Positions 12,182 through 60,255 of a stretch of 64,000 nucleotides of DNA are shown here, one piece after another. The position numbers and the translations under genes are program-made. The notes below the pieces were generated by a model. That model was not told where the DNA came from. It made no database searches and worked only from the letters and a program-made list of their open reading frames with translations. The first letter of the stretch is position 1. Each line of letters starts with the position of its first letter. The stretch lies in assembly GCF_001083805.1 (NCBI RefSeq), contig NZ_JXSK01000003.1:1-64000 (forward strand). The letters are read 5' to 3'. The stretch is from Photorhabdus luminescens subsp. luminescens. GTDB taxonomy: Bacteria; Pseudomonadota; Gammaproteobacteria; Enterobacterales; Enterobacteriaceae.

Positions 12182-12219
12182 GGAAGAATCCAGCCTAAAA
12201 GCTGGACTCTTCCCCTTTA
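12182..12219 (+). terminator. Terminator after orphan cdiI
   Basis: Stem GGAAGA-TCCAGC (12182-12194) with GCTGGA-TCTTCC (12201-12213), one mismatch, loop CTAAAA, followed by CCCTTTAT. Confidence 0.8.
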
Positions 12220-12224
12220 TATCG

Positions 12225-12342
12225 CTAGCTTTTCTCAACGAGCCGAATAATCAACAACCTATACTCAATGCAGACCTACACTGGCTGCCCGGTAGCAAAT
12301 CCCTCTTCTTGCAACCAGTTACCCTTCAGGTTCAAGCAGGGG
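12225..12342 (-). pseudogene. symE: SymE-like relic 2
   Basis: On the minus strand the sequence reads LKGNWLQEEGFATGQPV, stop, then LLIIRLVEKS: the C-terminal half of SymE with an in-frame TAG. The N-terminal half is gone. It lies antisense to the start of the next toxin frame. Confidence 0.6.
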
Positions 12343-12756: not shown

Positions 12757-13277
12757 TTAATGAAGAACTAATAAACTATCTGCACTCAGTTTACCCTGAG
12801 TTAAAAATCGATATCAGTTATATCAGAGGCTACTCTGTAGAAGAAATACAAAAAATGGAACGTCTTTATGACATTGAAATTAAAGATCAATTATATGACT
12901 TTCTAACTTGCATGGGACGTTGTAGTGGCGGGCTTTTTGGTGACGTTCCTCTAATTTTTTATCAAGAACAAGACACTGTTCGAGGTGATGTATTGTTTCA
13001 ATCAGGTCAACGGGAAGAATTGTGTAAAATTCAACTTCATACCCTGTTAAGACAAAAACCGTTTTTTGTTTCAGTAGAAAGCTATACTCAATATTATTTC
13101 CTATTAACGGCGTCAGATAATCCTAATTTGATTTATCACTATGATGAAAATGAAGAAACTGTTGAGGTCACAAACTGGACGTTTAATGAGTACTTAAGGC
13201 GTGTTGTAGATGTAATCACACGTAACTATAAGGTTAAAACATCCTTTGATCAAAGTGGTGAGTTGATCATTATCTAA
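12753..13277 (+). CDS. SMI1/KNR4 (SUKH) family immunity protein
   Basis: A 174-residue protein coupled to the deaminase by an ATGA overlap. The layout (EIQKMERLYDIEIKDQLYDFLTCMGRCSGGLFGD, then a hydrophobic strand pair and FNEYLRRVVDVI near the end) is the SUKH superfamily fold, one of the commonest immunity folds in polymorphic toxin systems and frequent partner of deaminases and nucleases. It is cytoplasmic and looks intact. It is followed by an IS remnant and not by a hairpin. Immunity function is inferred from family and position. Confidence 0.8.
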   Translation: MINEELINYLHSVYPELKIDISYIRGYSVEEIQKMERLYDIEIKDQLYDFLTCMGRCSGGLFGDVPLIFYQEQDTVRGDVLFQSGQREELCKIQLHTLLRQKPFFVSVESYTQYYFLLTASDNPNLIYHYDENEETVEVTNWTFNEYLRRVVDVITRNYKVKTSFDQSGELIII

Positions 13278-13316
13278 TCTTTTGACGTAAATTTTATGTA
13301 GTAGATCCCGACAAAT

Positions 13317-13400
13317 TGAACTGCCCCCGAAAGTTGAACACCCAACAAGTAGGGGAAAGTTCTGTATGAAGAATTACACTAAGCATTTGCTCACATTTTA
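13317..13400 (+). mobile_element. IS3-family left-end remnant 3
   Basis: Matches the other three IS ends (AACTGCCCCCGAAAGTT... and MKNYTKH-like first codons), but fuses to a different, more upstream point of the CdiA scaffold than the other copies. Confidence 0.6.
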
Positions 13401-13402
13401 AT

Positions 13403-27800: not shown

Positions 27801-29369
27801 AACAAGTTGTACTTTGTTATCAATTAAATTCACACTACGCGACATTGAAAAAACTTGATAAGCCTCATGTTCTTCATCAATCACTAATGTAAAACTGATA
27901 TTGTGTTTTCTAAAATAGTTTTCGTCGTCGATCTTAAAAAACGCGGTCTTTAAATATTCAATTTGTTCTGCAATCGGGGATTCTAAAAAAGCACTTAATA
28001 CACTGTCTGTGAGTTTCTTTTTCCCACCAATTAAGTAATCAAAAGGCATCGATTTTAAAATATATTTTCCTGCCTTATTTATCCGTGGCATTTTAATCGG
28101 TCTATCAAATTTGCTCGTTGTTGCCAGCAGAATACAAGGCGAAACCATCGCGGCTGCCATAGGTATACAATGAAAGATAATTTCTTTACGCAACTGCTCA
28201 ATCTTGTTATCTGCTCGCATAATAGCAGGTAGATTAACTGCCAACTCTTGTCGGTTTAAAGCAGCCTCAGATAACTCATCAAGCGCCCTCGTTAAATTAG
28301 ATTTATACTTTTTAAGCTGCTCTTCGTAATCCTGAATAAAATCAAATTCATCAACCTGCCGTTTTTGTCTTAAAATTTGACTTTCAATATTATCTATCAT
28401 TCTAACAATAACAGCTAAATTATTGGCTTGCGATGCCAGAGGTGATTTTTTCGCTCTTTTTTCCCATGTTAAATAACGTTTTCTATTCTCAATAATTTCT
28501 CCGTTGCAATCTTCGACCCAGTTTGCAAAGTTCAAGTCTCTCAGATCTTCCTGACCATAAAGGCCAAGAAATTCAATACCTTTTTTCTTCGCCTTTTCAA
28601 TCAGCTTCTTGTCAAAATCAATCTGTGCTTTCTGGGGAGTAATAAATAGAAAATTGGTAAAATCACTGTTTTTCACATTAATAGCAACTGATTCAATGTA
28701 ACGGCTAAGTACGCCATAACTCTTACCAAAACCCGTTCCGTCATTTGAAAATACCAGTTTCGGACTATTATTTTGATATACGCTATAGAGTTCAGATAAT
28801 CTAGCTCTCAATGTGTTAATTTCATCTTTAACCGGCTGTGGGGCCATCTTAGTCGCTAAATAATTAGCAAGGCCAAGTTGTTCTGACTTACGGCTTACGC
28901 TATATGGCTGATATTTTCCATCCAAAAGAATAATCAATTTTTGGCGATACAATTCTTGTATAATGTTTCTTTTCGATCGATTTAATTGCAAGGAAAAGTG
29001 AGCAACAACATCATTTACCAACCACCCCGCCTCAAAAAGCTGATTAACTTTTAAAAATACCTCCCTCTCTTCCTTTTTCAGCGCTTTATAAGATACACGC
29101 AATGTGAAATCATCTTTAGATGCTGTTTTGTCTCTCATCGGCAAAGCGACTTTGCGTGCCTTATCTCTACTCCTTTGATATAGAAATCCCATCTTTGCAA
29201 GCTCAAACATAATCGCAGTAGTTGTCGCTTTATCATGTTTAAGATCTTGTCTAATATCTTCCAAAATTCGAGCATGTTCATCAATAGCATTATCTAACTC
29301 TTTAAATAACTCCAATTTCTTATAAGCGATATCAAAAAGTTTTTCTTTTAAGGTTTCAGACCACCTCAT
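24882..29369 (-). CDS. SF2 helicase with C-terminal PD-(D/E)XK-like nuclease, putative defence protein
   Basis: A 1495-residue protein. Residues 1-190 form a helical N-terminus with a winged-helix-like segment. Walker A is at 210-217 (DGTGFGKS). A ~280-residue Arg/Lys/Glu-rich insertion precedes Walker B at 498-501 (DEEH, in FTLVIDEEHEAY). The second RecA lobe carries VVLLSSYKSAGTGLNY and the arginine-finger motif QAIGRVERKD near residue 1095. The C-terminal 170 residues hold KGNIGEYLFTLLL, LFDFYIEVDKHLICVDTKNW: Glu, Asp and Asp-x-Lys in the order of a restriction-endonuclease fold. This matches the logic of type III Res or similar DNA-translocating nucleases, but no methylase is next to it. 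It is the first gene of a two-gene operon. AT-rich codon use differs from the flanking metabolic genes. Anti-phage or anti-plasmid function is inferred. Confidence 0.8.
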   Translation of the reverse strand: MRWSETLKEKLFDIAYKKLELFKELDNAIDEHARILEDIRQDLKHDKATTTAIMFELAKMGFLYQRSRDKARKVALPMRDKTASKDDFTLRVSYKALKKEEREVFLKVNQLFEAGWLVNDVVAHFSLQLNRSKRNIIQELYRQKLIILLDGKYQPYSVSRKSEQLGLANYLATKMAPQPVKDEINTLRARLSELYSVYQNNSPKLVFSNDGTGFGKSYGVLSRYIESVAINVKNSDFTNFLFITPQKAQIDFDKKLIEKAKKKGIEFLGLYGQEDLRDLNFANWVEDCNGEIIENRKRYLTWEKRAKKSPLASQANNLAVIVRMIDNIESQILRQKRQVDEFDFIQDYEEQLKKYKSNLTRALDELSEAALNRQELAVNLPAIMRADNKIEQLRKEIIFHCIPMAAAMVSPCILLATTSKFDRPIKMPRINKAGKYILKSMPFDYLIGGKKKLTDSVLSAFLESPIAEQIEYLKTAFFKIDDENYFRKHNISFTLVIDEEHEAYQVFSMSRSVNLIDNKVQLVHVFAVTYRLLQQVKDIDVAKMPYLPFLSEKNEFIHDIKEYLEKNCELSLEGTIEQNLESLLKLFSGNIDFVQIKSDDIEQVINITRNVFSFSPKRFFNEESLKKVKIEFVHRGSGCQLYYSTDSRDKNPSLHDTYQLAMVVLAAAAKISSRSQFAKSLKQAGDSSQNFLMYKFIQKAGKIRNELKQMFDHPASEEMLISYFYTYFQSKTVFTIERMKELEFQDETLSNLTYINFTLDLIKEQPEVALLRSLYNTRNSVICLSATTGFAETYSGQYNRNFLRRFCSGKPNNLDIQIIERSGTDIALLTSLRDKRAELRTIDFGVFNSDLPLFDFCKDFDESFKIKFDFLRNELYGLDKKFKNSLNNYQKIEFERQLCSMLLAAYQGKHTMSLALSNRFQRKLRRYFSSSEIKIKNIKKIHDSWKIFEYFPFSNKSKIRVILFDAELRKECNIRDFTHIKDENTKVVLLSSYKSAGTGLNYFLTYPGEEGDLFEEDFERLVLTSAPFWSSIIKDEKTNDRTLHSLQNYLLLMKQCSDSDEEKFLKDFDVNLSSGEDYQFLMREHMIARLKDLMQAIGRVERKDTKMNTEIFIPDNAVEDGIVLFNQFTRIKKNRPILESMSLLNHHFMQLCEKERRMCSFKSCEERESFEKKIARNSALLREFFEDFVPEVLSVARKDNVEAIIFNEQLRSIESLISPSNYVRKLKSNPHVQKYQAMMDAVDALYIDISTTPQLKLSIKNLEDGIVTLTDIEHGYSIYHPKEWIFSGIGNRVSGRKDEYVTHLLKEIAMLNKNVFKDCLPHPFFIPLLKGNIGEYLFTLLLARLPNCQPIEPELLSEKIGKKAYELFDFYIEVDKHLICVDTKNWSSTLDKRYQSLKTHDNAQRKVGTILSYIDNKYESVKFVYLNTRMENNPLNLEQEVSPDSKIYYLNLFKEYFGYGNKKQDYDQDFRIGSGSELVKEVRINKQILNLLQGG

Positions 29370-39737: not shown

Positions 39738-40631
39738 CTATCGCTCTTGTGGGAATAAGTTATCTACCATGAAATCGACAAAAACTTTAACTTTAGGTAG
39801 GACCCAGCGGTTAGACGGCCATAGAACACGGAAAGTACTCGACGTATCAGACCATTTATCCAATACGGTCAATAACGTACCGTCAGCTAATGCTTGCTTA
39901 ACAGTAAAATCAGGCAAACAGGCGATGCCGTGGCCTTGAAGCGCCATGTAAAGTAGTGTTTCGATATGATTGCAGGTCATCTTTGCTTGAAGATGTATAT
40001 CTACTCCAGATTCTCCTAAGCATAGCGGCCATTTCTCCAAAAGATTTGTCGTTGGAAACCGGTGCATTAAGCATGCATGATGGAGTAAGTCTTTCGGTTG
40101 TGATGGCTTACCATGTTGTGCAAAGTAACTGGGAGCGCCAACGTATAAAAAACGGCTAGATCCGATACGTTTGTTCATCAAGCGTGAATCATTGAGTTCT
40201 CCCGTTCGCACCACAGCATCAAACCCTTCATCAATGACATCAACGAGTCGATCACTAAAGTCCAAATCCAATTCTATTTGTGGATAACGCACAGTAAAGG
40301 CTGACAATACGGGTAGCATCAGGCTGCTGACTAGTGGCAGACTCACCCGCAAACGGCCTTGAGGCGCAGAGATAGAACTCAATAATTCGTTTTCTGCCGA
40401 GGTGATTTCGTCCAAGATACGTTTGCAACGTTCAAGGAATAGAGTGCCTTCCGACGTTAAACTGACGCTACGAGTGCTGCGTTGGAGCAGACGTACCCCC
40501 AATTTCTCTTCTAACCGGGAGATGCTTTTACTGATGGACGAAGGGGATAGCCCAAGTTGATTGGCTACGGCTGTGAAGCTACGAGCTTCGGCTACACGAA
40601 TGAAAATCATGAATCTACTCAAACTATTCAT
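39738..40631 (-). CDS. LysR-family transcriptional regulator
   Basis: A 297-residue LTTR. Residues 1-60 are the winged HTH (FIRVAEARSFTAVANQLGLSPSSISKSISRLEEKLGVRLL), residues 90-290 the co-inducer domain of the small CrgA/DntR-like subgroup (FDAVVRTGEL, HGIACLPDF). ATG 40631 follows CAGGAAACCC. It is divergent from an MFS exporter, with 170 bp between the starts, the classical layout in which the LysR protein controls the divergent gene and itself. Whether it also controls the biosynthetic operon 2 kb away is unknown. Confidence 0.92.
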   Translation of the reverse strand: MNSLSRFMIFIRVAEARSFTAVANQLGLSPSSISKSISRLEEKLGVRLLQRSTRSVSLTSEGTLFLERCKRILDEITSAENELLSSISAPQGRLRVSLPLVSSLMLPVLSAFTVRYPQIELDLDFSDRLVDVIDEGFDAVVRTGELNDSRLMNKRIGSSRFLYVGAPSYFAQHGKPSQPKDLLHHACLMHRFPTTNLLEKWPLCLGESGVDIHLQAKMTCNHIETLLYMALQGHGIACLPDFTVKQALADGTLLTVLDKWSDTSSTFRVLWPSNRWVLPKVKVFVDFMVDNLFPQER

Positions 40632-40801: not shown

Positions 40802-42325
40802 ATGGTGATGAAATCTCAAATAAATATAGGATCAAGCGCAAATAAAGCACCGCTGGTCTTGACTGCCTGTCTTACCGCCGCTGTTATTCCTTTGAGCATT
40901 GCAGGACCTGCGGTCGTGGTGCCTTCAATCAACAAAGCGCTTGGTGGAAGCGCAGTAGAACTCAGTTGGATAATTAATGCTTATATTCTTACTTACGGCA
41001 GTGCAACAATGGCTGCGGGTAGCTTAGCCGACACTCACGGACGCAAGAAACTCTGGCTATTCGGTTTATTTCTCTTTGCTGTTGTTACTGCGGCGATACC
41101 TTATATGCCGTCCGTTTTTTGGGTTGATATTTTACGGCTTATACAGGGATTGGGAGCAGCGGCGGCCTTTGCCGGTTCAATGGCAGCATTGACTCAAGAA
41201 TTTGATGGTCATCAACGTACACGCATTTTCAGCCTGATTGGCACAACATTTGGGGCCGGAGCAGCTTTTGGTCCCTTTTTGGCAGGACTGCTAATTGACT
41301 CGTTAGGATGGCCTTGGGTTTTTTGGCTACCTGCTTTGGTGGCATTAGTTGCCAGTATATTGGTGAGTATTTATGCACGAGAAACGCGTGATCCCGACGC
41401 AGAAGGGCTAGATTGGCCCGGCGCAATAACATTTACCTCATCTTTAGCCGCTTTTACTTATGGAATCATTCTGGCGCCTGAAAAAGGATGGGGAGACAGT
41501 ACGGTACTGGCGACACTGATATGTTCCATTATTATTTTCATCATATTTATTATTATTGAACGACAGCGTTCAAGACCTATGTTAGATCTCTCGTTATTTG
41601 CCAATGCGCGCTTTGTCGGTGTGCAACTTCTTGCTATCGCGCCAGCGTATGCTTACGTTGTCTTGCTCGTTATATTGCCGGCACGTTTTATTGGTGTCGA
41701 AGGGTACAGCGCATTTGAAGCAGGCCAAATGATGATCACCTTGTCCGCACCTTTACTAATAGTCCCCTTTATTGCCGGTCAATTAGCTCGCTGGATTAAT
41801 GTCGGCGTTATTTCAGGTATGGGGCTTATCATCGCCGCTGGCGGCTTATTCTGGCTAGGTTATGGGATTTCCGGCGCGACAACGGCGGAAAGATTATGGC
41901 CAATGTTGGTTATCGGAATTGGGATTGGCCTGCCTTGGGGATTGATGGACGGTTTGGCGGTGAGTGTCGTTCCTAAAGAGCGAGCGGGTATGGCGACTGG
42001 AATTTTCAATGCTGTCCGTTTAGCAGGAGATGGGATCGCATTGGCGGTGGTAGGCGCTATTCTCTCTGCGCGTATATCTTCAGGTTTAAGTACATTAAGC
42101 GCTATTCCGGCTGATATTTTATCTGAAATATCCACACGGCTTGCAATGAGCGATCTAAGTAATGCGGTTGCCATTTTCCCTTCATTAGATCAATCATTGC
42201 TGCATAAAGTATACGAAGAAGCATTTCGATATCAATTCGTTGCACTTGCAGTAGCGGCAGCGATTACCGCAATGTTAGTGTTTATTTTATTGGGTAAAGT
42301 AAAATCTCACAGTGAAAGTAAATAG
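40802..42325 (+). CDS. MFS multidrug exporter, DHA2 (14-TM) family
   Basis: A 507-residue inner-membrane proton antiporter. It has ~14 hydrophobic segments, the DHA2 antiporter signature early (SWIINAYILTYGSATMAAG, then GSLADTHGRKKLW), motif C-like GTTFGAGAAFGPFLAGLL, and a terminal helix near residue 480. ATG 40802 or 40808 are both possible starts. Divergent from the LysR gene and directly upstream (540 bp) of the biosynthetic operon, separated by an intergenic repeat. It could export the operon's product or protect against aromatic toxins (inference from context). The gene is complete. Confidence 0.9.
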   Translation: MVMKSQINIGSSANKAPLVLTACLTAAVIPLSIAGPAVVVPSINKALGGSAVELSWIINAYILTYGSATMAAGSLADTHGRKKLWLFGLFLFAVVTAAIPYMPSVFWVDILRLIQGLGAAAAFAGSMAALTQEFDGHQRTRIFSLIGTTFGAGAAFGPFLAGLLIDSLGWPWVFWLPALVALVASILVSIYARETRDPDAEGLDWPGAITFTSSLAAFTYGIILAPEKGWGDSTVLATLICSIIIFIIFIIIERQRSRPMLDLSLFANARFVGVQLLAIAPAYAYVVLLVILPARFIGVEGYSAFEAGQMMITLSAPLLIVPFIAGQLARWINVGVISGMGLIIAAGGLFWLGYGISGATTAERLWPMLVIGIGIGLPWGLMDGLAVSVVPKERAGMATGIFNAVRLAGDGIALAVVGAILSARISSGLSTLSAIPADILSEISTRLAMSDLSNAVAIFPSLDQSLLHKVYEEAFRYQFVALAVAAAITAMLVFILLGKVKSHSESK

Positions 42326-42868: not shown

Positions 42869-44176
42869 ATGAGCAAAAATATCGTTAGCGTACCCAAAGA
42901 GGCAGTTAGTATCGCATCTGGAAATTTTGAGACGTCTGAAATAATCGCTAAAAGAGCATCTATAAGATTAAACAGTCCAGGCAAAGAGTATAATTCTAAG
43001 CGTGAAGATTTAAATGGGCCAATAATTTGGTTTGACACTGCAAAATTGTCAGCCCAGAGGCCAGACGATAGTATTTTCATCAGGGTCATAAATTCTCTTT
43101 ATAGTGGTATAGTTTTATATCCAGATAATATCTCAACTTTCATTAATGCAATACCCAAAAGAATGCAAATAGTTCTGAAAGTGAGAACCCATGAAGAACT
43201 TAATAAATTTAAAGAGAGCGAACATTTCGCTTTATTTAAACCTTCTAATACAAACTCAAATAAATGTATTTGTTCCAATGACATAGCCACTTTGAAGAAA
43301 CTTAAAGCAGAGTCTATTGCGACTTGTTATGAAAGTTATGTTGATGATCAAGATAGTCTTCTTAAAACAATCAATGAAGGAATGGAATTCAATTTTCTTT
43401 GGATTCTTTTTCGTGATCCAACCAATATTCCTCTTGAGCTGGTCATTGCATCATTACAGTCTACCGGAACTATTTTATTAAAAGAAATTAGCGATCCTGA
43501 TGATGTCGATGATGCAATCGTCTCTTATGGCGTTATGGAATATGGCGCGGAAGGCGTTATTTTCTCACCCAATAAACATGATGTCATGAGCGACTTTATC
43601 GATCGTTTATCATATAACAGAAAAGAATCACTGCAACTACAAGTCGGAATCATTACAGAAAGTCGTCCTGTCGGTATGGGATATCGGGCTTGTATTGATA
43701 CATCCACGTTATTCAGCGAGAACGAAGGCATGCTGGTAGGTAGTACTTCTCAAGGCGCCCTGTTGTGCTGCCCGGAAGTATTCTTTTTGCCCTATATGGA
43801 ACTGAGACCATTCCGTATTAATGCTGGCGCAATACACGCCTATGTATATAACTTTAATAACCGAACAGATTATATGAGTGAATTAAAAGCCGGCTCATCA
43901 GTCATGGCGGTCAACTCAAAGGGTGAAGTACGGCATATAACGGTTGGTCGCGTAAAAATAGAACAACGCCCTCTTCGGTTAATTGAAGCAGAATTTCCAG
44001 GGAATAAACGGGTGAATGTTTTGATGCAAGATGATTGGCATGTGAGAATTTTTTCTAGCGAAGCAAAACCTTTAAACATCTCTGAACTTAAACCTGGAGA
44101 CAAGGTGCTTGGTTATATTACAGAGCCTGGTCGTCATGTTGGCATTAAAATTAATGAATCTATTATTGAAAAGTAG
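42869..44176 (+). CDS. 3-dehydroquinate synthase II family enzyme (GriH-like)
   Basis: A 435-residue NAD-dependent enzyme of the archaeal DHQ synthase II/GriH family. The C-terminal half shows the family signature: CIDTSTLFSENEGMLVGSTS, the RPFRINAGAIHAYV motif, ELKAGSSVMAV, VGRVKIEQRPL and the ending GRHVGIKI...IEK. In bacteria with a normal shikimate route, GriH turns the GriI product into 3-amino-4-hydroxybenzoate (established for grixazone). The start ATG 42869 has AGGGGA at 8 nt; an upstream in-frame GTG at 42761 would add 36 unlikely residues. Even so, about 50 residues precede the first conserved segment, an N-terminal extension. It is the first gene of the operon and ends one nt before the next frame opens. 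Confidence 0.85.
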   Translation: MSKNIVSVPKEAVSIASGNFETSEIIAKRASIRLNSPGKEYNSKREDLNGPIIWFDTAKLSAQRPDDSIFIRVINSLYSGIVLYPDNISTFINAIPKRMQIVLKVRTHEELNKFKESEHFALFKPSNTNSNKCICSNDIATLKKLKAESIATCYESYVDDQDSLLKTINEGMEFNFLWILFRDPTNIPLELVIASLQSTGTILLKEISDPDDVDDAIVSYGVMEYGAEGVIFSPNKHDVMSDFIDRLSYNRKESLQLQVGIITESRPVGMGYRACIDTSTLFSENEGMLVGSTSQGALLCCPEVFFLPYMELRPFRINAGAIHAYVYNFNNRTDYMSELKAGSSVMAVNSKGEVRHITVGRVKIEQRPLRLIEAEFPGNKRVNVLMQDDWHVRIFSSEAKPLNISELKPGDKVLGYITEPGRHVGIKINESIIEK

Positions 44177-44185
44177 GTGATGATT

Positions 44186-44974
44186 ATGGGATACATCGGA
44201 AGAAAATTAAGAGAAAGCAGATTGTTATTTCCCAAATCAAGCCGAGGATTAATAGTGCCGATTGATCACGGGTTAACTATGGGGCCAATCTCTGGTTTAC
44301 AAAGTGTTTATGCAGTTGAATCGTGGATCAATAGCAACTATGTGAGCGCTGTTCTGGCCCATAAGGGGATATTGGAAAAACTCATTCTGCGTGGAATGTT
44401 GCGCCCATCGACAGGTATTATTCTTCATATGAGCGGCATGCCAACGATATCAGAATCACCGGATACTAAAATATTAGTGGCGAGCATAGAAGCTGCTCTT
44501 CAACTTGGTGTGGATGCTGTTTCTATACAGGTAAATTTCACTGAAACAAATTTCGAACATAATTTATCTATATTGGGATCTGTCACAGACATCGCGCATG
44601 AAGCGGGGCTTCCTGTACTCACAATGCTATATGACAAAGTTGTTTCCAAATCGTCAGAAATAAAGATGGAAAGGCTGCACCATCTTATAAGGATTGTCAC
44701 TGAACTGGGATCTGATGCAATAAAAATAGGTTTCCCTGACTCTGAATCCGCTATTTCAGAAATCGTAGATCTTCATGGTTCTGATATTAAGATTTTCTTC
44801 GCCGGGGGAGAAAAAACGTCTGACGAAATACTGATTAATAATACCAAAGCCGCTATTTCGTCTGGAGCTTGCGGATTATGTGTTGGCAGAAATATTTTTC
44901 AAAATCTCAACCCACAATCCCTGCTTCACCATTTATATGAATGTATAAATTCAGAGTCAATATCTTTGGCTTAA
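44186..44974 (+). CDS. DhnA/GriI-type aldolase (class I, fructose-bisphosphate-aldolase-like)
   Basis: A 262-residue TIM-barrel aldolase. Visible: RGLIVPIDHGLTMGPISGL near residue 20, the barrel strand DAIKIGFPDSE with the probable Schiff-base lysine, FFAGGEKTSD (phosphate site) and CGLCVGRNIFQN at the end. In the grixazone pathway GriI joins aspartate semialdehyde to dihydroxyacetone phosphate; the archaeal homologue makes the shikimate precursor ADH. I choose ATG 44186 because TAGGTGAT lies 5-6 nt before it; GTG 44177 and ATG 44180 are in the same frame. It follows the DHQ synthase II gene by 9 nt, and the two should make 3-amino-4-hydroxybenzoate or a close relative. Confidence 0.87.
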   Translation: MGYIGRKLRESRLLFPKSSRGLIVPIDHGLTMGPISGLQSVYAVESWINSNYVSAVLAHKGILEKLILRGMLRPSTGIILHMSGMPTISESPDTKILVASIEAALQLGVDAVSIQVNFTETNFEHNLSILGSVTDIAHEAGLPVLTMLYDKVVSKSSEIKMERLHHLIRIVTELGSDAIKIGFPDSESAISEIVDLHGSDIKIFFAGGEKTSDEILINNTKAAISSGACGLCVGRNIFQNLNPQSLLHHLYECINSESISLA

Positions 44975-45030
44975 TAAAAGCCTGTATATCATAGATTTCA
45001 CGCAGTTGAATATGACTAAAAGGGTTTATC

Positions 45031-47466
45031 ATGGAACTCGTTATCAATACTCAAAACGAACCTAAAAAAGCAACAGGTTATTCTTTATCACCATTATGGG
45101 AAGACATTTTTTCTAAAGATGTATTGGAAGAAATTAATACCAATGTATTTTTGGCGGCTTGCCGTTCTGGAAAAGCCAACCAGAATTTACTAAGAAAATT
45201 CATGATCCAGCACCAGTACTATTCACAATATTTCACCAGATATCTGTGTTCGTTGATGGGAAACTTAGTTGATCAAAATGATTTTACGCTTCTTTCTCAT
45301 AATTTGCTGGAAGAGCTAACAGGAACTGATGCTGCAAAGATATCTCACGTAGAATTATATAAAAAGGCGATGGCGGCAATTAATGCGGTTCCTAAAAGTC
45401 ACCCGATTCTTAGCAGCACTCAGCAATTGATTAACACTATGTTTGACCATTGCCGGAGTAATAATTCTTTAAAGGGACTCGCTGCGCTGTGCCTGGGTGC
45501 TGAGGCGATCGTGCCTTTAATTTATGGCCCAATTTTAGATGCATTGCGAGCAATGAAAGCGCCTGATGACGCATTGCATTTCTTCAAAATCCATGTTGAG
45601 GAGGATGAAGAGCATGCCATAGTGATGAGGAAAATTATTGATCGCATGATTGAAGGAAATCCTCGCGGAAAAGCAGAAGTTATGGCTTTTGGTGAAGAAG
45701 TAATACGTGTTCGGATGGCGATGCTAAATGAGATATATCAAAGTAGTATCGGGATAGCTCCAAACGTAACGACTCTTTTATCTGAACGTGATTTAGTCTG
45801 TTTGCGTAATGATAACATGTTAGGTAGCGGTAATTTTCTCGACCGCTGTTTATCGCTAAGTCGTACCCCGACTGTGGATTTTATTTTTACAGATACACCT
45901 ATAACTATTGCCAGTCAACGTAATATCCAACAATTCAGCTTAGCTACCTTGGCAAATATTAGACGTGAGCTTGCGGGCTGGTATTTAGCTAATGGGATTA
46001 AAACCGGGGATGTGGTTGCTGTTTGTGTGCAAGATGGAATTAGTCCATTTCTGCATTACATTGCCATCACGAGTATTGGCGCAACAATTGCGTTAATTAA
46101 TCCGGCGATGCCGTCGGATACCGGCATCGCTTACATCAAAGAGAACGGTTTTAATACACTCGTCACCGATGAATCTTCTTTTAATAATAATTCACTGATA
46201 AAGAGTTTACGGAATGCCGGTGATATATGTGAAATTCTCAATGTTTCAAATTTCAATACCGAGGTGGAATATAACTTGCCTTCCTGGTGGCCGTATATTC
46301 CGGTGGATACAACATTACTTATGTTGAGCCATACTTCTGGTACGACGGGCATACCCAAGGCAGTAAAATTTGAACATCGTCAATTCTTTATGGGAAAACG
46401 CGCCAGACTTGGGCGTTTTGTCGAATCACCAGATGAGCGTTTGCTGACCGTTTTGCCGCAGTCTCACTCCTCTGCTATTAGTCATCTTGAAACAGCGATA
46501 TTGCACGGTCTCCCAACTTATGTACTCAGTAGCCAGGAGGGCGAACCGGTAAGGAAAGCGATAAAAGATTTTTCTCCTACAACGGTTGTTGCGTTTCCCA
46601 AAAGCTACGTTTCTTTACTGGAGCGCGAGGTATCGTATGCTGAATTCCCGTCAATACGGCGATGGTTTAGCATGGGTGATGCAGCCCATCAGAGTCACAT
46701 TAGCCGTTTACTGGCGGGTTCGCCGGGCGCACGTTTTATCGATGCATTTGGAAGTTCAGAGCTTGGTATGGCTCTGTTTCAAAGTGTATCCACGGCAGAT
46801 CGAATTGCACCATCTCGTTCAATTGGGCGTCCCGTTGATATCGTTACAGCCAAAATATTGGACATGACTTCTGGTGATGAAGTGTCGCCAGGACTTGTTG
46901 GAGCGCTCGCTGTCTGTTCACCAACAATTACTTCTGGCTATTGGAAGCAGAACCAAAAAACCGCCGATGCATGGCGAAATGGGTATTTCTTGACCGGAGA
47001 TGTCGGATATTGCAAAGACAATGTTTTTTATCAAATTGATCGTGTGGTTGATGTTGTTCATACCCCTGACGGCTCGTTGTATACCCTGCAACTGGAAGAG
47101 ACGATACAGACAATCGAAAGTGTCTATGATGCAACAATTATAGGATTGAATTTACCCTGTGCTGAAAATGAAAAAATAACATTAGTCGCATTGGTTCTAT
47201 TGAGTAAGAAATTAACGGAGGATGTCGATCTTGTTACAGACAAAACGCTTCATCTCATGCAGGAAAATAATGAAATAGGGAATGCTATTGGAGAATATAT
47301 TGTTATTGTTGTTAATAGTTTCGATCAGATTCCCATTGGCGTAACCGGTAAGGTTTTGAAACGCAGATTAAGGGATCTTCTGCCTAAAATTCTTGAGGAA
47401 TATGAAAGAAATAAAGAAATTCCAAATGGAATTTTAAAAATCATTCGCCATATACCCACTAATTAA
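45031..47466 (+). CDS. Fusion of a haem-oxygenase-like diiron oxidase with an adenylate-forming ligase
   Basis: An 811-residue two-domain protein. Residues ~25-245 are an HDO/TenA-like helical bundle with the metal pattern Glu95 (LLEELTG), His106, Glu158 (LGAEAIV) and His188-x3-Asp192-x2-His195 (HVEEDEEH), the ligand set of UndA/BesC/SznF-type non-haem diiron oxidases. Residues ~280-811 are an ANL ligase with SHTSGTTGIPKAVKF (ATP loop, ~430-445), GSSELGMALFQ, TGDVGY (~655) and the C-terminal lysine in GVTGKVLKRRL (~771). The ligase probably adenylates an aryl carboxylate and the oxidase modifies nitrogen or carbon on it (inference). I know no family with this exact fusion. The upstream 56-nt gap contains no convincing ribosome site except AAGGGTTTATC. 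Operon gene 3. Confidence 0.85.
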   Translation: MELVINTQNEPKKATGYSLSPLWEDIFSKDVLEEINTNVFLAACRSGKANQNLLRKFMIQHQYYSQYFTRYLCSLMGNLVDQNDFTLLSHNLLEELTGTDAAKISHVELYKKAMAAINAVPKSHPILSSTQQLINTMFDHCRSNNSLKGLAALCLGAEAIVPLIYGPILDALRAMKAPDDALHFFKIHVEEDEEHAIVMRKIIDRMIEGNPRGKAEVMAFGEEVIRVRMAMLNEIYQSSIGIAPNVTTLLSERDLVCLRNDNMLGSGNFLDRCLSLSRTPTVDFIFTDTPITIASQRNIQQFSLATLANIRRELAGWYLANGIKTGDVVAVCVQDGISPFLHYIAITSIGATIALINPAMPSDTGIAYIKENGFNTLVTDESSFNNNSLIKSLRNAGDICEILNVSNFNTEVEYNLPSWWPYIPVDTTLLMLSHTSGTTGIPKAVKFEHRQFFMGKRARLGRFVESPDERLLTVLPQSHSSAISHLETAILHGLPTYVLSSQEGEPVRKAIKDFSPTTVVAFPKSYVSLLEREVSYAEFPSIRRWFSMGDAAHQSHISRLLAGSPGARFIDAFGSSELGMALFQSVSTADRIAPSRSIGRPVDIVTAKILDMTSGDEVSPGLVGALAVCSPTITSGYWKQNQKTADAWRNGYFLTGDVGYCKDNVFYQIDRVVDVVHTPDGSLYTLQLEETIQTIESVYDATIIGLNLPCAENEKITLVALVLLSKKLTEDVDLVTDKTLHLMQENNEIGNAIGEYIVIVVNSFDQIPIGVTGKVLKRRLRDLLPKILEEYERNKEIPNGILKIIRHIPTN

Positions 47467-47509
47467 CATTAATAATAGTTAACATTAATAATAGAGAAGG
47501 TAAATTACA

Positions 47510-48205
47510 GTGAATGAAGATCTTTATGAAAAACCGGTTATCGACGCTATAAAACAAAAATTGATTCTCGCTGAATCCTCCGATATTTCTGAGTTTGAAT
47601 GTATGGGCAGGTTATTTAACATTCATAAAAATGTGTTCCCTCCCACTCATTTCCAATCCACCGGTATTTTTACCCGGAATATTCCTTATGCACGAAATAG
47701 CTCTTTTTTGGAGTTAGGCTGTGGTGCGGGAGTGACAGCTATTACAGCGGCGCTAGCAGGATGTTATCCCGTTGTTGCTTCTGATATTAGCGAAGAGGCA
47801 GTGAAAAACACCTTATTTAATGTGACCCGGCATCGGGTAAATAATTTAATTTCTGTCAGGCATGGAGATTTATTTGACATATTAAAAGATGGTGAAAGTT
47901 TTGATATTATTTTCTGGAACTCTAATTTCTTATTTGTTCCTGAAAATTACACTTTTAAAGAGGAAATTTATCACGCATTTTACGACCCAGGATATATAAC
48001 CCATAAACGTTTCCTGCAAGAAGCAAGAAAATATCTTAATCCTCAAGGGAAGATACTCATCGGGTTTAGCAGCCAGGGAAATGAAGCCGCATTTAGTGAG
48101 TTACTCACAGAACACGGCTACAACTATTTTGTTTTATATGAGGAACAAGGAACAGGTAAAAATGCACAGATATATAAAATCTTTCAACTGACATCTTTAA
48201 TCTAA
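47510..48205 (+). CDS. SAM-dependent methyltransferase, PrmC/HemK-like
   Basis: A 231-residue class I methyltransferase. Motif I is FLELGCGAGVTAITAAL, motif II VASDISEEAV; an acidic GDLFDIL follows. The position where HemK-type N-methylases have NPPY reads WNSNF, so it is unlikely to methylate glutamine; a small-molecule O- or N-methylation on the aminohydroxybenzoate product is more likely (inference). The start is GTG 47510 with GAGAAGG at 9 nt; the only nearby ATG is out of frame. It follows the fusion gene by 43 nt. Confidence 0.8.
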   Translation: MNEDLYEKPVIDAIKQKLILAESSDISEFECMGRLFNIHKNVFPPTHFQSTGIFTRNIPYARNSSFLELGCGAGVTAITAALAGCYPVVASDISEEAVKNTLFNVTRHRVNNLISVRHGDLFDILKDGESFDIIFWNSNFLFVPENYTFKEEIYHAFYDPGYITHKRFLQEARKYLNPQGKILIGFSSQGNEAAFSELLTEHGYNYFVLYEEQGTGKNAQIYKIFQLTSLI

Positions 48206-48245
48206 GTCGTTAATTGCCACGGGTCATGATTAAGGAGGGTTAATT

Positions 48246-49907
48246 TTGACTATAGAAAATGAATCTCCAGTAGCCATCGTCGGCGGCGGACCCGTTGGCT
48301 TAATGCTGGCTTTATTTCTGGATTTATACGGTATTCGTTCGGTTATTTTTAATTTGGACGAGGAAACCCGATGGCACCCCAAGGGTAATACCCATAATGC
48401 TCGCACGATGGAACATTATCGTCGTTTAGGGATATCTCAAGCTATTCGGGCATTAGGATTGCCAAAAGAGTTTCCGCTGGATGTGTCATATTTTACCCGG
48501 CTTAATGGATGGGAACTCGCTCGTATCAATATGCCGTCAGGAATACAGAAAATATCCAGGCTCCAACATACTATTTCGACCGATCCCGTTCCAGAACCCT
48601 TGATGCGGGTCAACCAAATGTATGTTGAAAAGTTTTTACTACAACATGCCCGTAGTCGTCCAAATATCACCATGAAATATGGCTGGCGCGTTAAAGATTT
48701 TATCCAGCTTAAAGATGACGTAAAACTTTATGCAGAGTGTATTCAGGGAAAACATCCCGATGAAGTCTGGCACACAAGCTATATGATTGGCTGCGATGGT
48801 GGACAAAGTTTTGTTCGTTCCAAGCTTGGTATCGCATATGAAGGAACGGTTGAAGCTAAAATAGGTTTTCTGACTGGCGGCATGATATCCAGTTATATCC
48901 GTATCCCTGGGCTTCACCAAGGGATATTAAAAGACAAAGAATCTTGGATGTACAATATCATCTGCCCGATGTTGAGAATGTTATTTATCAGCCTGGATGG
49001 CAAAGATGATTTTTTACTTATGACTCAAAGTGAACATGGAAAGGTTATCAATGAGTCAGAATTAATTCGTATGGCTCAGGCAGGAATAGGCTCAGATCTC
49101 GAAGTATCCGTTCTGAGTAATTCGGTATGGAAAGGTGGCGTGGCGCTTGTCGCTGAAAGATTCTCTGACGGAAAAATATATTTAGCAGGCGACTCCGCTC
49201 ATTTATTTTCGCCTACCGGCGGCTTTGGCATGAATACTGGCATTGATGATACGAGTAATTTAGCCTGGAAACTTGCTGCGTCTATCAAGGGTTGGGCAGG
49301 TAATGCGTTAATGGATTCTTATGAAAGCGAACGCCGCCCAATTGCATTGAGAAATACCGCTGCCGCCCGTTTTTTAACGCAGCGGGTCTCATCATTATCC
49401 ATACCGACAAATCTAGAAGATGCAGATTCCGCAGGGAATTTGGCCCGCAAAAAAATGGGGATTGAGCTAAGTACTTTCCGCAGTCAATTTTCTTCTATCG
49501 GTGTTGAACTTGGCGCCAGATATGACCATTCTCCCCACATTATTAATAGTGCGCCAATACCGGATGATGACTTTATTCATTATCAGCCAAGTCATGTGCC
49601 AGGAGGCCGATTGCCGCATCTGTGGCTCACACCGGTTCCTGGAGCAAAAATATCGCTATTCGATATTTTAGGCACTGGCTTTAGCTTACTTCGGGTAGGG
49701 GCTTATTTCCCAGAGGTATCTGAACTATTAGATCAGGCATATCAACGTAAAATTCCGATCAAGATTATTGATCTTTCCGGTAGTGATGCCTGGCAATTGT
49801 ATCAAGCAAGGCTCCTTTTAGTACGTCCCGACCAATATATTGCCTGGAAAGGCGATAAGGTTCCTAACAATATAGGTTCAATACTGGATAAGATTATAGG
49901 TAAATAA
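48246..49907 (+). CDS. FAD-dependent aromatic hydroxylase 1 (PheA/TfdB type)
   Basis: A 553-residue group A flavin monooxygenase. It has the Rossmann GGGPVG at residues 13-18, the DG motif (GCDGGQSFVRSKLG) and the GD motif GDSAHLFSPTGGFGMNTGIDD near residue 313, plus the thioredoxin-like C-terminal domain (PGGRLPHLWLT..., LVRPDQYIAWKG). The role would be ortho-hydroxylation, or oxidative decarboxylation, of the aromatic intermediate. The start is TTG 48246, supported by AAGGAGGG 6 nt upstream; no ATG lies nearby in frame. Operon gene 5, 40 nt after the methyltransferase. Confidence 0.88.
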   Translation: MTIENESPVAIVGGGPVGLMLALFLDLYGIRSVIFNLDEETRWHPKGNTHNARTMEHYRRLGISQAIRALGLPKEFPLDVSYFTRLNGWELARINMPSGIQKISRLQHTISTDPVPEPLMRVNQMYVEKFLLQHARSRPNITMKYGWRVKDFIQLKDDVKLYAECIQGKHPDEVWHTSYMIGCDGGQSFVRSKLGIAYEGTVEAKIGFLTGGMISSYIRIPGLHQGILKDKESWMYNIICPMLRMLFISLDGKDDFLLMTQSEHGKVINESELIRMAQAGIGSDLEVSVLSNSVWKGGVALVAERFSDGKIYLAGDSAHLFSPTGGFGMNTGIDDTSNLAWKLAASIKGWAGNALMDSYESERRPIALRNTAAARFLTQRVSSLSIPTNLEDADSAGNLARKKMGIELSTFRSQFSSIGVELGARYDHSPHIINSAPIPDDDFIHYQPSHVPGGRLPHLWLTPVPGAKISLFDILGTGFSLLRVGAYFPEVSELLDQAYQRKIPIKIIDLSGSDAWQLYQARLLLVRPDQYIAWKGDKVPNNIGSILDKIIGK

Positions 49908-49964
49908 GAGATGATTTTCCGGGGATATGGGTATTAACATGAATTAAATACGGAACACAATATT

Positions 49965-51689
49965 ATGATTGAGACAGATGTTCTTATCGTAGGTAGTGGC
50001 CCTTCTGGCTCCGCAGCAGCTTTGTTTCTGAGTAGTTATGGGATTAATACAATGGTCATCACTAAACATCGGTGGTTGGCTAATACACCTCGTGCACATA
50101 TAACAAATCAGAGGACAATAGAAATATTATCGGAGTTTGGTGTTGGTGATGAATTAATGGCAAGCTCAGTACTAAATGAGATAATGGGCAATAGTATATT
50201 CTGCGAGACGTTGGCAGGAAACGAGATTGCGAGAATAAAATCATGGGGAGCGCATCCAGAACGTTTAAGTGATTATAAAATAGCGAGTCCATTTAGTATC
50301 TGTGATATACCACAAACTTACCTTGAACCGATATTGATTGGCCGTGCTATTAAAAATGGAGCACATGTTAAATTTTCGTCAGAATATATACAGGCCACAC
50401 AAGATAAACAGGGTATTACGGTAACGGCTTTTGATCGCTTAGAAAAGCGGGAGTACCAAATACGGACTAAATATCTTATTGGGGCTGATGGCGCCAGAAG
50501 TAAAGTTTGTTCCGATGCACAACTGCCGATGAAAGGCGAATTGAATCTTGCTGGCTGTATAAATATTTTCTTTGATGCTGATCTATCTGCTTTAGTTTCT
50601 CATCGGCCCGGCGCGTTATTTCTCATTTTTAATAATGAAGCTATTTCTGGTGGAATTGGCCTGGGTGCATTAAGAATGGTGCGTCCGTGGAAAGAATGGC
50701 TGGGAGTATGGAATTACGACATCACCCAACCGCCGCCCATAATTACCGAGAATGATGCGGTCAATATTCTTAAAAAGCTTATCGGCGATTATGATGTGGA
50801 TATAGATATTAAGTCAATATCGACCTGGACGGTAAATAATATGTATGCGGAGGAGTATTCTAATCAACGAATATTTTGTGTTGGCGATGCGGTTCATCGG
50901 CATCCACCCAATAATGGGTTGGGATCTAATACCTCGATTCAAGATTCTTATAATTTATGTTGGAAACTTGCCTATGTTCTCAAACATTATGCAGGACAGG
51001 AATTGTTAAAAACTTATAATCAAGAGAGAGTTCCAGTAGGAAAAGCGGTTGTTGCCCGAGCAATGCAAAGTATAAGTGAAAGCCAAGAACTGAGTCTTTC
51101 ATTAGGGTTGGATAAACCTACAGTCTCTACCGCAGAATTTCTTTCCTCTGATGAGGATATTGGCATAACGAGAAGGAGTAGATTTTATAAGGCATTAAGA
51201 TTAAAGAACTATGAGCTTAATGGGCATGGAGCTGAGCTAAACCAATGTTATAGATCGGCGGCTATTTTGAGCGAAAGAGTTTCTAACGAAGAAGAAAAAA
51301 GTGACGATCTATTTTTCATGTATCACTCTACATTTACACCTGGCGCGCGAATTCCACATGTTTGGTTAAGCCAAAAGGGAAAAATTATATCTTCAATTAA
51401 TTTAGTTGGTCATGGGAAATTTTCATTGTTCACCGGAATAGCGGGAAAGAAATGGATTTCGGCAGTAGAAAAATATAACCAAGAACATGCTTGCAAAATA
51501 AATGCATATATTATTGGTCCTGGCGAAGAAATTAACGACATTTATGGTGATTTTTATGGTCGCTGTCATTTTGATGAAAACGCCTGTGTTCTTGTCAGAC
51601 CTGATGGACATATCGCATGGTATTGCCGGGATAATAGAGAGCATGATAAACGCCTGGCAGAAGATATGGCTAAGTTACTTTTAAAATAA
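49965..51689 (+). CDS. FAD-dependent aromatic hydroxylase 2 (PheA/TfdB type)
   Basis: A 574-residue paralogue of the preceding gene (same fold and length, but clearly diverged): GSGPSG at residues 9-14, the DG motif IGADGARSKV, and GDAVHRHPPNNGLGSNTSIQD near residue 307. C-terminal thioredoxin-like region with FTPGARIPHVWL and VLVRPDGHIAWY. ATG 49965 is an adequate start though its ribosome site is poor. Two tandem hydroxylases imply two successive oxidations of the ring (inference), for example hydroxylation and decarboxylative hydroxylation. Confidence 0.88.
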   Translation: MIETDVLIVGSGPSGSAAALFLSSYGINTMVITKHRWLANTPRAHITNQRTIEILSEFGVGDELMASSVLNEIMGNSIFCETLAGNEIARIKSWGAHPERLSDYKIASPFSICDIPQTYLEPILIGRAIKNGAHVKFSSEYIQATQDKQGITVTAFDRLEKREYQIRTKYLIGADGARSKVCSDAQLPMKGELNLAGCINIFFDADLSALVSHRPGALFLIFNNEAISGGIGLGALRMVRPWKEWLGVWNYDITQPPPIITENDAVNILKKLIGDYDVDIDIKSISTWTVNNMYAEEYSNQRIFCVGDAVHRHPPNNGLGSNTSIQDSYNLCWKLAYVLKHYAGQELLKTYNQERVPVGKAVVARAMQSISESQELSLSLGLDKPTVSTAEFLSSDEDIGITRRSRFYKALRLKNYELNGHGAELNQCYRSAAILSERVSNEEEKSDDLFFMYHSTFTPGARIPHVWLSQKGKIISSINLVGHGKFSLFTGIAGKKWISAVEKYNQEHACKINAYIIGPGEEINDIYGDFYGRCHFDENACVLVRPDGHIAWYCRDNREHDKRLAEDMAKLLLK

Positions 51690-51762
51690 AGTGTTTTTAA
51701 CGTTATCTCAAAATAGTAAAAAAATGCAAATTTTGGAATAAGAGACGATATTAGAGGTAATT

Positions 51763-52215
51763 ATGGTGAAAATGAATCATTTCTCCTCTGGAGATTTTAA
51801 TAAAATTCCTGATGAATTAATTGAAGATAAACCAAAGCAATTAATTCATGAAAATGTATTAAATTCTGAAATTAGCCAAGATTTGAATTTCTCAAATGAA
51901 AGACGTCATAAAGTGGCTATGGTTAATTTACCCAGTAAAGTTTTGAGTATGACATTAGGAGGATTACAACCTGGAGAATCCACGCGTAAACACAGACATA
52001 GCTATGAAACGATCATCTATATCGTGAATGGAGAGGGATATTCATTAATTGGCGAGCAACATGTTTCATGGAAAGCCGGTGATGCGATATATGTGCCTGT
52101 ATGGGCATGGCATCAACATATAAATAGCAGTGTCACTGATGAGGCTCTCTATATTGCATGTGAGAATGCACCCATGTTGCAAAACTTGGGGCTTGCAGTT
52201 CGTGAAGAACTTTGA
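51763..52215 (+). CDS. Cupin-domain protein
   Basis: A 150-residue single-domain cupin. His77, His79 and Glu82 (KHRHSYE) and a later His in PVWAWHQHIN form the metal site; GEGYSLIGEQ is the inter-motif loop. The N-terminal 45 residues are polar. Roles in such operons are ring-cleaving dioxygenase, isomerase or cyclase; it is too short for gentisate dioxygenase and the reaction is not predictable. Start ATG 51763 has GAGGTAATT before it. Operon gene 7, between the hydroxylases and the dehydrogenase. Confidence 0.82.
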   Translation: MVKMNHFSSGDFNKIPDELIEDKPKQLIHENVLNSEISQDLNFSNERRHKVAMVNLPSKVLSMTLGGLQPGESTRKHRHSYETIIYIVNGEGYSLIGEQHVSWKAGDAIYVPVWAWHQHINSSVTDEALYIACENAPMLQNLGLAVREEL

Positions 52216-52283
52216 ATTTAGCAGGATATACATCAATTAAAAGCCTATCCTAGTAGGCATTTTTTAAGAGGAATGAAACAATC

Positions 52284-53030
52284 ATGTTTAGACTATCGGG
52301 GAAATATACCTTAATTACCGGAGGAACAACCGGTATTGGTTTCGAAACGGCAAAAAAATTCCATGCTGAAGGAGCTAATGTTGCAATTACTGGAAACAAT
52401 CCAGAGACATTAGATTTTGCCCAGAGATTCTTTGGCAAGGATGTTTGGGTTATACCCAGTGACGCAGGGTCTTTGGCATCACAAGTAATCTTAAGGGATA
52501 CAATTAAAGAGCGCTGGCCGCAGATTGATGCGCTTTTTCTTAATGCCGGAATTGTGACGAGTCATAAATTAGAAGAAGAAAGTGAAGAGGGTTTTGATCG
52601 CCTCATGTCGATTAATTTAAAAGGGCCGTTTTTCCTCTTACAATCCATGCTCCCTCTTCTTGCGAGACCATCTTCCATCATTCTGTCCGGCTCAGTCAGT
52701 GGTCATATCGGTAAAAGTGGAACAAGTGCGACTTATTCAGCAAGCAAAGGAGCTTTATTAGCTATGGGACGTGCTTTAGCTGCGGAGTTCGTAGATCGTC
52801 AGATTCGAGTTAATAGTATTAGCCCCGGCCCAATAATGACTCCGGCATTCGACAAATTAGGGATAAACAATACTCAACGTGTATATCAGGAAGTGAGCGC
52901 TATGATTCCAGCCGGACATCTAGGAACCCCGGCGGATGTCGCAGATGTGGCCGTTTTCCTCGCTTCAGATGAGTCTAAGTTTTTGTTGGGAACTGACATT
53001 ATTATCGATGGCGGTATGGTTAATATTTAA
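52284..53030 (+). CDS. Short-chain dehydrogenase/reductase
   Basis: A 248-residue classical SDR. TGGTTGIG at 12-19 binds the cofactor; NAGIV, the catalytic Ser in LSGSVSG and YSASK (Tyr-x3-Lys near residue 151) complete the active site; the C-terminus has the usual LGTDIIIDGGM. Start ATG 52284 with AAGAGGAATG at 10 nt. It is the last gene of the operon and likely performs a keto/hydroxy redox step on the product (inference). A weak hairpin and T-run follow at 53144. Confidence 0.92.
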   Translation: MFRLSGKYTLITGGTTGIGFETAKKFHAEGANVAITGNNPETLDFAQRFFGKDVWVIPSDAGSLASQVILRDTIKERWPQIDALFLNAGIVTSHKLEEESEEGFDRLMSINLKGPFFLLQSMLPLLARPSSIILSGSVSGHIGKSGTSATYSASKGALLAMGRALAAEFVDRQIRVNSISPGPIMTPAFDKLGINNTQRVYQEVSAMIPAGHLGTPADVADVAVFLASDESKFLLGTDIIIDGGMVNI

Positions 53031-59876: not shown

Positions 59877-60013
59877 ATAACAAAACAATAGAAGAATGAT
59901 GATTTTTACGACAACCATGCAACGCTACAATTAAATAATGATTGACGTCTGCTAAAAAACCACTAAAATCCGCCTCCGTGCTGTCAATCAACAGATTGAT
60001 AGTGTCTGAATTT

Positions 60014-60099
60014 GCGAGGGTGGCGGAATTGGTAGACGCGCTAGCTTCAGGTGTTAGTGTTCTTACGGACGTGGGGGTTCAAGTCCCCCCTTCGCACCA
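60014..60099 (+). tRNA. leuP/Q/V: tRNA-Leu (anticodon CAG), copy 1
   Basis: A cloverleaf with GCGAGGG acceptor, D-loop AATTGGTAGA, anticodon loop TTCAGGT (CAG), long variable arm typical of tRNA-Leu, GGGGG-TTCAAGT-CCCCC T-arm and encoded CCA. It is 86 nt, one shorter than the next copy: only six bases pair on the 3' acceptor side after the T-stem. This lies in a C-run. Same location as the E. coli leuQPV cluster. Confidence 0.93.
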
Positions 60100-60168
60100 A
60101 ATCAGACAGCCGCTGATTGAATTCGGCCAATATTAAATTAGGCAATAAAAAGTAGAATGACAGTACCT

Positions 60169-60255
60169 GCGAGGGTGGCGGAATTGGTAGACGCGCTAGC
60201 TTCAGGTGTTAGTGTCCTTACGGACGTGAGGGTTCAAGTCCCTCCTTTCGCACCA
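60169..60255 (+). tRNA. leuP/Q/V: tRNA-Leu (anticodon CAG), copy 2
   Basis: 87 nt, same body as copy 1 with T-stem GAGGG/CCCTC and a full 7-base acceptor 3' strand (CTTTCGC), CCA encoded. Separated from copy 1 by 69 bp, presumably one transcript. Confidence 0.97.

Follow-up and report, generated by a model that had tools for sequence, protein, structure and literature searches.

How a predicted diazotase may be supplied with nitrous acid when the genes known for this task are not found with it is the question raised by an operon of Photorhabdus luminescens subsp. luminescens, located at positions 42869-53030 of contig NZ_JXSK01000003.1, of which the first 64,000 nucleotides were analysed (this whole stretch is called here the window). 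Eight consecutive open reading frames (ORFs) lie on the forward strand, with intergenic gaps of 0, 56, 43, 40, 57, 73 and 68 bases (Table 1; gene 1 has an alternative GTG start at 42761), and the third is a single ORF of 811 aa that carries both a Haem_oxygenas_2 domain, typical of a heme-oxygenase-like diiron oxygenase (HDO), and an AMP-binding (ANL) domain. We propose, tentatively and with slightly more doubt than belief, that gene 3 encodes an enzyme able to install a diazo group on its own, in which nitrous acid made by the HDO half, or a nitrosyl donor held on the protein, would be passed to the diazotase half. That the product, plausibly derived from 3-amino-4-hydroxybenzoate (3,4-AHBA), passes through diazotisation is, for its part, very probable. 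A preliminary description of the locus had proposed a one-strand, eight-gene operon with short gaps, containing a dehydroquinate synthase II (DHQS II) homologue, a DhnA aldolase, the fusion, a methyltransferase, two FAD enzymes, a cupin and a short-chain dehydrogenase/reductase (SDR); the ORF positions confirmed the arrangement and Pfam and NCBIfam the domain content, both FAD monooxygenases (FMO1 and FMO2) being of the FAD_binding_3 family and gene 7 of the cupin_2 family.

In NCBIfam, the ANL half of gene 3 scored highest with the 3-aminoavenalumate diazotase model NF058622, at 261 bits against 178 bits for a generic CoA-ligase model. The AvaA6 equivalog cut-off being 975 bits, the ANL half therefore falls in the same wider family as AvaA6 and is not the same enzyme. 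Among PDB sequences, four distinct entries scored between 200 and 224 bits and the next only 81 bits; two of the four (8TF7 and 9BQ0) are the N-nitrosylase Tri17 (217 bits), as far as the available portion of the review PMC11705231 indicates, the other two being 9xb8 and 8ztz. An ANL tree of 70 rows (drawn from 87, with 17 distant rows dropped, two more having been skipped earlier for an internal stop) placed 57 diazotase-family rows apart from the other 13 ANL rows, which are more distant, with a Shimodaira-Hasegawa-like approximate likelihood ratio (SH-aLRT) support of 100, the family grouping resting on the AvaA6 model and Tri17 and not on CreM or AvaA6 sequences. The SGTTGxPK and TGKxLK columns, which we take to be the ATP-binding loop and the C-terminal lysine of the ANL fold, are invariant across nine aligned members of the diazotase family. 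N-N-forming ANL enzymes are described, in the accessible parts of PMC10777205 and PMC11705231, as AMPylating nitrous acid and then coupling it to an amine. Together, these sequence comparisons strongly suggest that the ANL half belongs to the nitrite-activating, N-N-bond-forming enzymes and not to the acyl-CoA ligases, and its predicted activity is an ATP- and nitrite-dependent diazotisation. The fusion had previously been read as activating an aminohydroxybenzoate and oxidising it at nitrogen or carbon; models, PDB ranking and tree do not bear this out, and diazotisation of the amine is likely to be the better reading.

According to the available portion of PMC10777205, known diazo pathways obtain nitrous acid from CreE and CreD, the enzymes of the aspartate-nitrosuccinate (ANS) pathway, and 72 of 134 ava-like clusters lack avaE and avaD, the source of nitrous acid in these being a stated open question. 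We took as queries two proteins of a cremeomycin-like (cre-like) Streptomyces plasmid locus, L042: a CreD that exceeds the NCBIfam cut-off for nitrosuccinate lyase, and a presumed CreE, matched by no NCBIfam model and recognised by its annotation (FAD/NAD(P)-binding) and its place beside the lyase. Neither had any match at 1e-10 in the four Photorhabdus genomes with an intact operon (G000, G004, G006 and G008), and both matched the ANS-bearing controls G469-G472 at 1e-135 or better; a hidden ANS pathway in these four genomes was rejected on this ground. Dissimilatory nitrate reductase was likewise rejected as a Photorhabdus nitrite source, narG or napA being over cut-off in none of 12 genomes (assimilatory nitrate reductase and nitric oxide synthase were not searched).

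Most of the beta- and gamma-proteobacterial diazotases that we read are accompanied by an HDO. On a draft contig of Burkholderia WS-FJ9 (L047), an N-terminal HDO continues in frame through the first 100 or so ANL residues, the remaining ANL sequence being in another frame; the HDO ORF overlaps the diazotase ORF by 26 bases in Photorhabdus G008 and by 16 bases in G549; and the two genes share one cluster in Pseudoduganella. The genome G903, from a relative of Chromobacterium, encodes an 801-aa protein (locus L146) in which the HDO is fused C-terminally, in the reverse order to Photorhabdus. We also built a careful ANL tree from 27 chosen rows. On it, the L146 enzyme joins that of Klebsiella (support 100/99) and then that of G549 (97/96), and the enzyme of the window joins that of Burkholderia (100/100), both fusion branches lying within a beta/gamma clade (100/99) of 13 rows, only two of which, Klebsiella L040 and Pseudogulbenkiania L058, have no HDO in the locus. 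Since the fused proteins fall into different groups on this tree, the two fusions are separate events. In four genomes, a Chromobacterium HDO-cupin fusion lies about 5 kb from a diazotase; on an HDO tree it joins HDO-aminotransferase proteins (97/95), and the HDOs of Pseudoduganella, G549 and G903, which have class II aldolase neighbours, form another group (100/100), so that different HDO lineages have become joined to diazotases. PF14518 matches are few in these genomes (one in G463, two in G549 and three over cut-off in G464) and, under uniform placement, an HDO would fall within 10 kb of any one gene with a probability of about 0.002-0.012 in each genome. A role of the HDO as nitrogen donor to the diazotase is, from these associations, likely, with belief and doubt close to balanced.

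The HDO half itself has the residues E94/E95, H106, E158, H188 and H195, which are invariant across 18 aligned HDO rows, and the HxxxDxxH pattern occurs in 17 of the 18 (L031 has none); the three-histidine, three-carboxylate ligand set, as described in the available portion of PMC13108848, is thus conserved in gene 3 at the level of the alignment. A self-sacrificing p-aminobenzoate (pABA) synthase was considered and rejected for the HDO, the positions of the sacrificial Tyr27 and Lys152 of CADD being Leu41 and Ile168 in the alignment. Cupins like that of gene 7, separate in the Photorhabdus operon, are fused to the HDO in Chromobacterium L055, and the predicted structure of this homologue (mean predicted local distance difference test, pLDDT, 72.7; predicted template modelling score, pTM, 0.58) also speaks for the ligand set of the HDO; SznF was not among the best 50 rows for this predicted fold, in which the cupin half was barely covered.

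Other arrangements of these two domains were seen. HDO ORFs apparently fused to a class III aminotransferase occur in Photorhabdus G007 (L026, 7591-11118) and on a Pantoea plasmid (L125, 11938-13938); pairs of HDO and class II aldolase are accompanied by a DhnA-type aldolase in L147 and L148 and by an AurF-type oxygenase in L129. Cupins like that of gene 7 (52-57% identity to the L055 cupin) stand beside a dihydrodipicolinate-synthase-family gene on plasmids of Gluconobacter, Chroococcidiopsis and Hymenobacter (L126, L127 and L128).

The operon is not a chance arrangement, as the same gene order recurs in other genomes. It is preserved in three further genomes of the genus (G004, G006 and G008, the last with gene 3 split into two overlapping ORFs) and in Photorhabdus akhurstii DSM 15138 (L046), the closest named match, with 91-99% protein identity across the cluster; the order of genes 3-8 is also preserved on the Burkholderia contig. 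PF01959, the family of gene 1, is found in four of 12 Photorhabdus genomes, and gene 1 is its sole match in the genome of the window. A LysR gene and a major facilitator superfamily (MFS) exporter accompany every intact copy read (L022, L028, L029 and L046), and the cluster is therefore better counted as ten genes. The intact cluster is flanked by nupC/HD and tatD/patatin genes in G000, G004, G006 and P. akhurstii, and in G008 it adjoins glnS. Eight extra HDO copies close to that of the window were found (G000, G001, G002, G004, G005, G006, G007 and G009) and the neighbourhoods of six, all except G002 and G004, were read: all are decayed copies of the cluster adjacent to glnS (L021, L023, L024, L025, L030 and L032), one of them in the genome of the window, and two of the six genomes, G000 and G006, carry the intact operon elsewhere. 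In these decayed copies the HDO and the cupin are full-length ORFs in all six, LysR in five, FMO1 in four and the methyltransferase in one, and the DHQS, aldolase, diazotase, FMO2, SDR and MFS genes in none. Locus L027 of G004 also has, at 11250-12515, a second ORF of diazotase type, which is truncated (421 aa; identity about 39%) and adjoins an aminotransferase-like regulator ORF, an arrangement resembling that of Klebsiella.

The origin of the substrate was examined through genes 1 and 2. The 3,4-AHBA origin put forward in the preliminary description remains plausible, as pairs of DHQS II and DhnA aldolase stand beside diazotase-family genes in many loci (plasmids of Klebsiella michiganensis and Sinorhizobium medicae, Pseudoduganella, a gamma-proteobacterial metagenome-assembled genome and several actinomycetes), although neither gene 1 nor gene 2 passes an NCBIfam cut-off. 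Homologues of gene 5, with 43-47% identity, are present in eight actinobacterial diazotase loci, one of which is L042, with its nitrosuccinate lyase beside the presumed CreE.

Several of these related loci merit a description of their own. The Klebsiella michiganensis plasmid (L040, NZ_CP048110.1), from a strain isolated from Bactrocera dorsalis, carries DHQS, aldolase, an AvaA7-like reductase, an MFS gene and a diazotase-family gene, with no ANS genes in the locus and no PF14518 match on the plasmid, and may turn 3,4-AHBA into 4-hydroxybenzoate by diazotising the amine and then replacing it with hydride. The Streptomyces plasmid loci L042 and L044 combine a diazotase and CreE/CreD-type clusters with methionine/S-adenosylmethionine-cycle genes and a DNA-methyl repair gene (L042 has in addition an Ada-type gene), gene sets which look as if the product methylates DNA. 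On a Leisingera plasmid (L043), a distant diazotase-like ANL gene (28%) accompanies pabB, a class IV aminotransferase and a 4-hydroxybenzoate 3-monooxygenase, a cluster that perhaps makes an aminophenol from pABA.

Taking the families of all genes together, genes 1 and 2 would join aspartate semialdehyde and dihydroxyacetone phosphate to give 3,4-AHBA, which genes 5 and 6 would hydroxylate and gene 4 would methylate. The HDO half of gene 3, probably with the cupin of gene 7, may N-oxygenate a donor amine and feed the attached diazotase half with nitrous acid, or with an equivalent nitric oxide donor, thereby standing in for CreE and CreD; the ANL half would adenylate the nitrous acid and couple it to the aryl amine. 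Gene 8 may reduce an intermediate, the LysR protein would regulate the cluster and the MFS protein would export the product, presumably a hydroxylated and methylated 3,4-AHBA derivative formed via, or ending as, an ortho-quinone diazide. We regard as evenly poised the reading that this is a cremeomycin-like pathway to a diazo compound (or a transient diazonium) whose ANS step is taken over by the HDO, probably together with the cupin.

A number of observations weigh against a nitrogen-donating HDO. The strongest, which speaks against a purely diazotase-serving role, is that the HDO-cupin pair must have some use without the diazotase: pairwise ratios of nonsynonymous to synonymous substitution rates (dN/dS) among the decayed copies are 0.061-0.172 for the HDO and 0.079-0.188 for the cupin (15 pairs each) and, as both ORFs are full-length and these values low, both genes have stayed under purifying selection after the diazotase was lost; at 1e-30, the decayed-copy genomes G001, G007 and G009 have no diazotase match and G005 only a fragment. 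Similarly, pairs of HDO and class II aldolase occur in L129, L147 and L148 with no match to the ANL half at 1e-4. Among PDB sequences the HDO is closest to pABA synthases, with no SznF among its matches, and the cupin is closest to ring-cleaving dioxygenases (84 bits to the gentisate dioxygenase 3bu7). HDO and ANS share none of 57 diazotase-family loci, but this is not significant (Fisher p = 0.09), the split follows phylogeny, the 57 loci are not independent, and 33 of them show neither HDO nor ANS, some having short flanks; the loci L143-L148, retrieved with the HDO-cupin query, are a biased sample and stand outside this count. Finally, elsewhere in the Burkholderia genome three sequences match the presumed CreE at 34-41%, and HDO and narG occur together in G463, G464 and G549, which include Pseudoduganella and Chromobacterium.

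The leading alternative, although we consider it unlikely, is that the HDO and the cupin form an independent tailoring module, for example for aminophenol oxidation or ring cleavage, next to a true diazotase fed with nitrite from outside, such as host nitric oxide. The purifying selection in copies without an intact diazotase, the resemblance of the cupin to gentisate and 5-aminosalicylate dioxygenases and the 33 of 57 loci with neither ANS nor HDO in the available stretch all favour it, and exogenous nitrous acid is among the possibilities named by Kawai et al. in the available portion of PMC10777205; but two separate fusions in opposite domain orders and the overlapping genes point to a joint function, and the 12 Photorhabdus genomes provide no narG or napA over cut-off. 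It is improbable that the HDO oxidises the aryl amine itself, taking 3,4-AHBA to an N-hydroxy, nitroso or nitro compound, and that the ANL domain activates the product or couples two nitrogens (azoxy or azo): HrmI and SznF show that some HDOs are N-oxygenases, a fusion would suit one substrate handled twice, and this was the reading of the preliminary description, but the ANL half groups with activators of nitrite and not of aryl substrates, and HDOs of the same family are found in clusters without DHQS or diazotase matches. A little less probable again is a diazotisation that serves only to remove the amine, hydride replacing the diazonium so that the final product has no N-N bond; ava and cma are known to deaminate in this way (PMC10777205, available portion), the related enzymes in Klebsiella, Pseudogulbenkiania, G549 and G903 have AvaA7-like reductases beside them, and gene 8 is a reductase, but neither the intact Photorhabdus copy L046 nor L047 has an AvaA7-like match, and relatives of gene 5 sit in cremeomycin-like loci. 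An ordinary aryl-acid ligase, transferring to CoA or another acyl acceptor with no N-N chemistry, has in its favour the AMP-binding fold and the missed AvaA6 cut-off but was rejected as very improbable, model ranking, PDB ranking and tree all contradicting it.

If the reading of gene 3 as a diazotase joined to its own nitrogen donor is true, biosynthesis would have, beside ANS, another enzymatic route to nitrous acid, one that was combined with diazotases on more than one occasion in beta- and gamma-proteobacteria and has either a cupin or a class II aldolase as its partner. Photorhabdus, an insect-associated bacterium, would also gain a diazo-type metabolite, and a one-protein tool for enzymatic diazotisation might result. 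The opposite-order fusions point to a specific protein as a candidate source in diazotase clusters without ANS, and the question becomes testable with one purified enzyme. Our searches of open-licence papers found no report of a fused HDO and diazotase or of a diazo compound from Photorhabdus, and no characterised cluster with this gene set, as the preliminary description had suspected.

Table 1. Coordinates of the ten genes of the cluster within the window, with the evidence for each assignment
Feature	Position	Strand	Evidence
LysR-family regulator, divergent from the cluster	39738..40631	-	Pfam HTH_1 and LysR_substrate
MFS exporter, DHA2/EmrB-like	40802..42325	+	PF07690; best NCBIfam model efflux_EmrB, below cut-off
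Gene 1: DHQ synthase II homologue, probable 3,4-AHBA synthase subunit (putative GriH/CreH type)	42869..44176	+	PF01959, 306 bits
Gene 2: DhnA/ADH-synthase-type aldolase (putative GriI/CreI type)	44177..44974	+	PF01791; PRK07226, 180 bits, below cut-off
Gene 3, N-terminal half: HDO domain	45031..45801 (approximate boundary)	+	PF14518
Gene 3, C-terminal half: ANL domain, nitrite-dependent diazotase family	45802..47466 (approximate boundary)	+	NF058622, PDB Tri17, tree
Gene 4: class I methyltransferase (HemK2/PRK14968-like)	47510..48205	+	Pfam/NCBIfam
Gene 5: FAD monooxygenase FMO1	48246..49907	+	PF01494
Gene 6: FAD monooxygenase FMO2, MbnF/RdmE-like	49965..51689	+	PF01494 and NCBIfam
Gene 7: single-domain cupin related to gentisate/5-aminosalicylate dioxygenases	51763..52215	+	PF07883
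Gene 8: SDR	52284..53030	+	Pfam/NCBIfam

Elsewhere in the window, a contact-dependent-inhibition-like region at 8564-17017 comprises two large ORFs, both carrying pre-toxin VENN (PT-VENN) domains and one also a hemagglutinin repeat, with stretches of 51-60% G+C nearby. Two adjacent large ORFs of 1495 and 678 aa on the reverse strand (22849-29369; 28-35% G+C) have no Pfam match at 1e-5, and two tandem tRNA-Leu (CAG) genes lie at 60013-60255.

Among known systems, the cremeomycin (cre) cluster of Streptomyces cremeus has a 3,4-AHBA synthase pair, of which genes 1 and 2 are putative counterparts, and resembles the operon in its CreM-type diazotase family and methyltransferase (available portions of PMC11429834 and PMC11705231), but the Photorhabdus operon is without CreE and CreD, has its HDO fused to the diazotase and adds the cupin, two FAD monooxygenases and the SDR; moreover, a search of the intact copy L046, gene 4 included, with the O-methyltransferase from the cre-like locus L042 gave no match at 1e-6. 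The avenalumic acid (ava) and p-coumaric acid (cma) pathways share with it the AvaA6/CmaA6-type diazotase family and, as predicted for the operon, a 3,4-AHBA origin, whereas the operon has no type II polyketide synthase component among its eight genes, ANS genes are missing and, as said above, L046 has no AvaA7-like match. Unlike SznF (streptozotocin), GrbD (gramibactin) and HamA/HamB (fragin), the operon has an HDO fused to an ATP-dependent diazotase-family domain and a separate, gentisate-dioxygenase-like cupin, and it differs from the self-sacrificing pABA synthases CADD and NePabS by the leucine and isoleucine at the sacrificial positions. Tri17 of triacsin biosynthesis acts on a hydrazone, carries no fused HDO and works with ANS partners, but it is the closest relative of the ANL half identified among solved structures.

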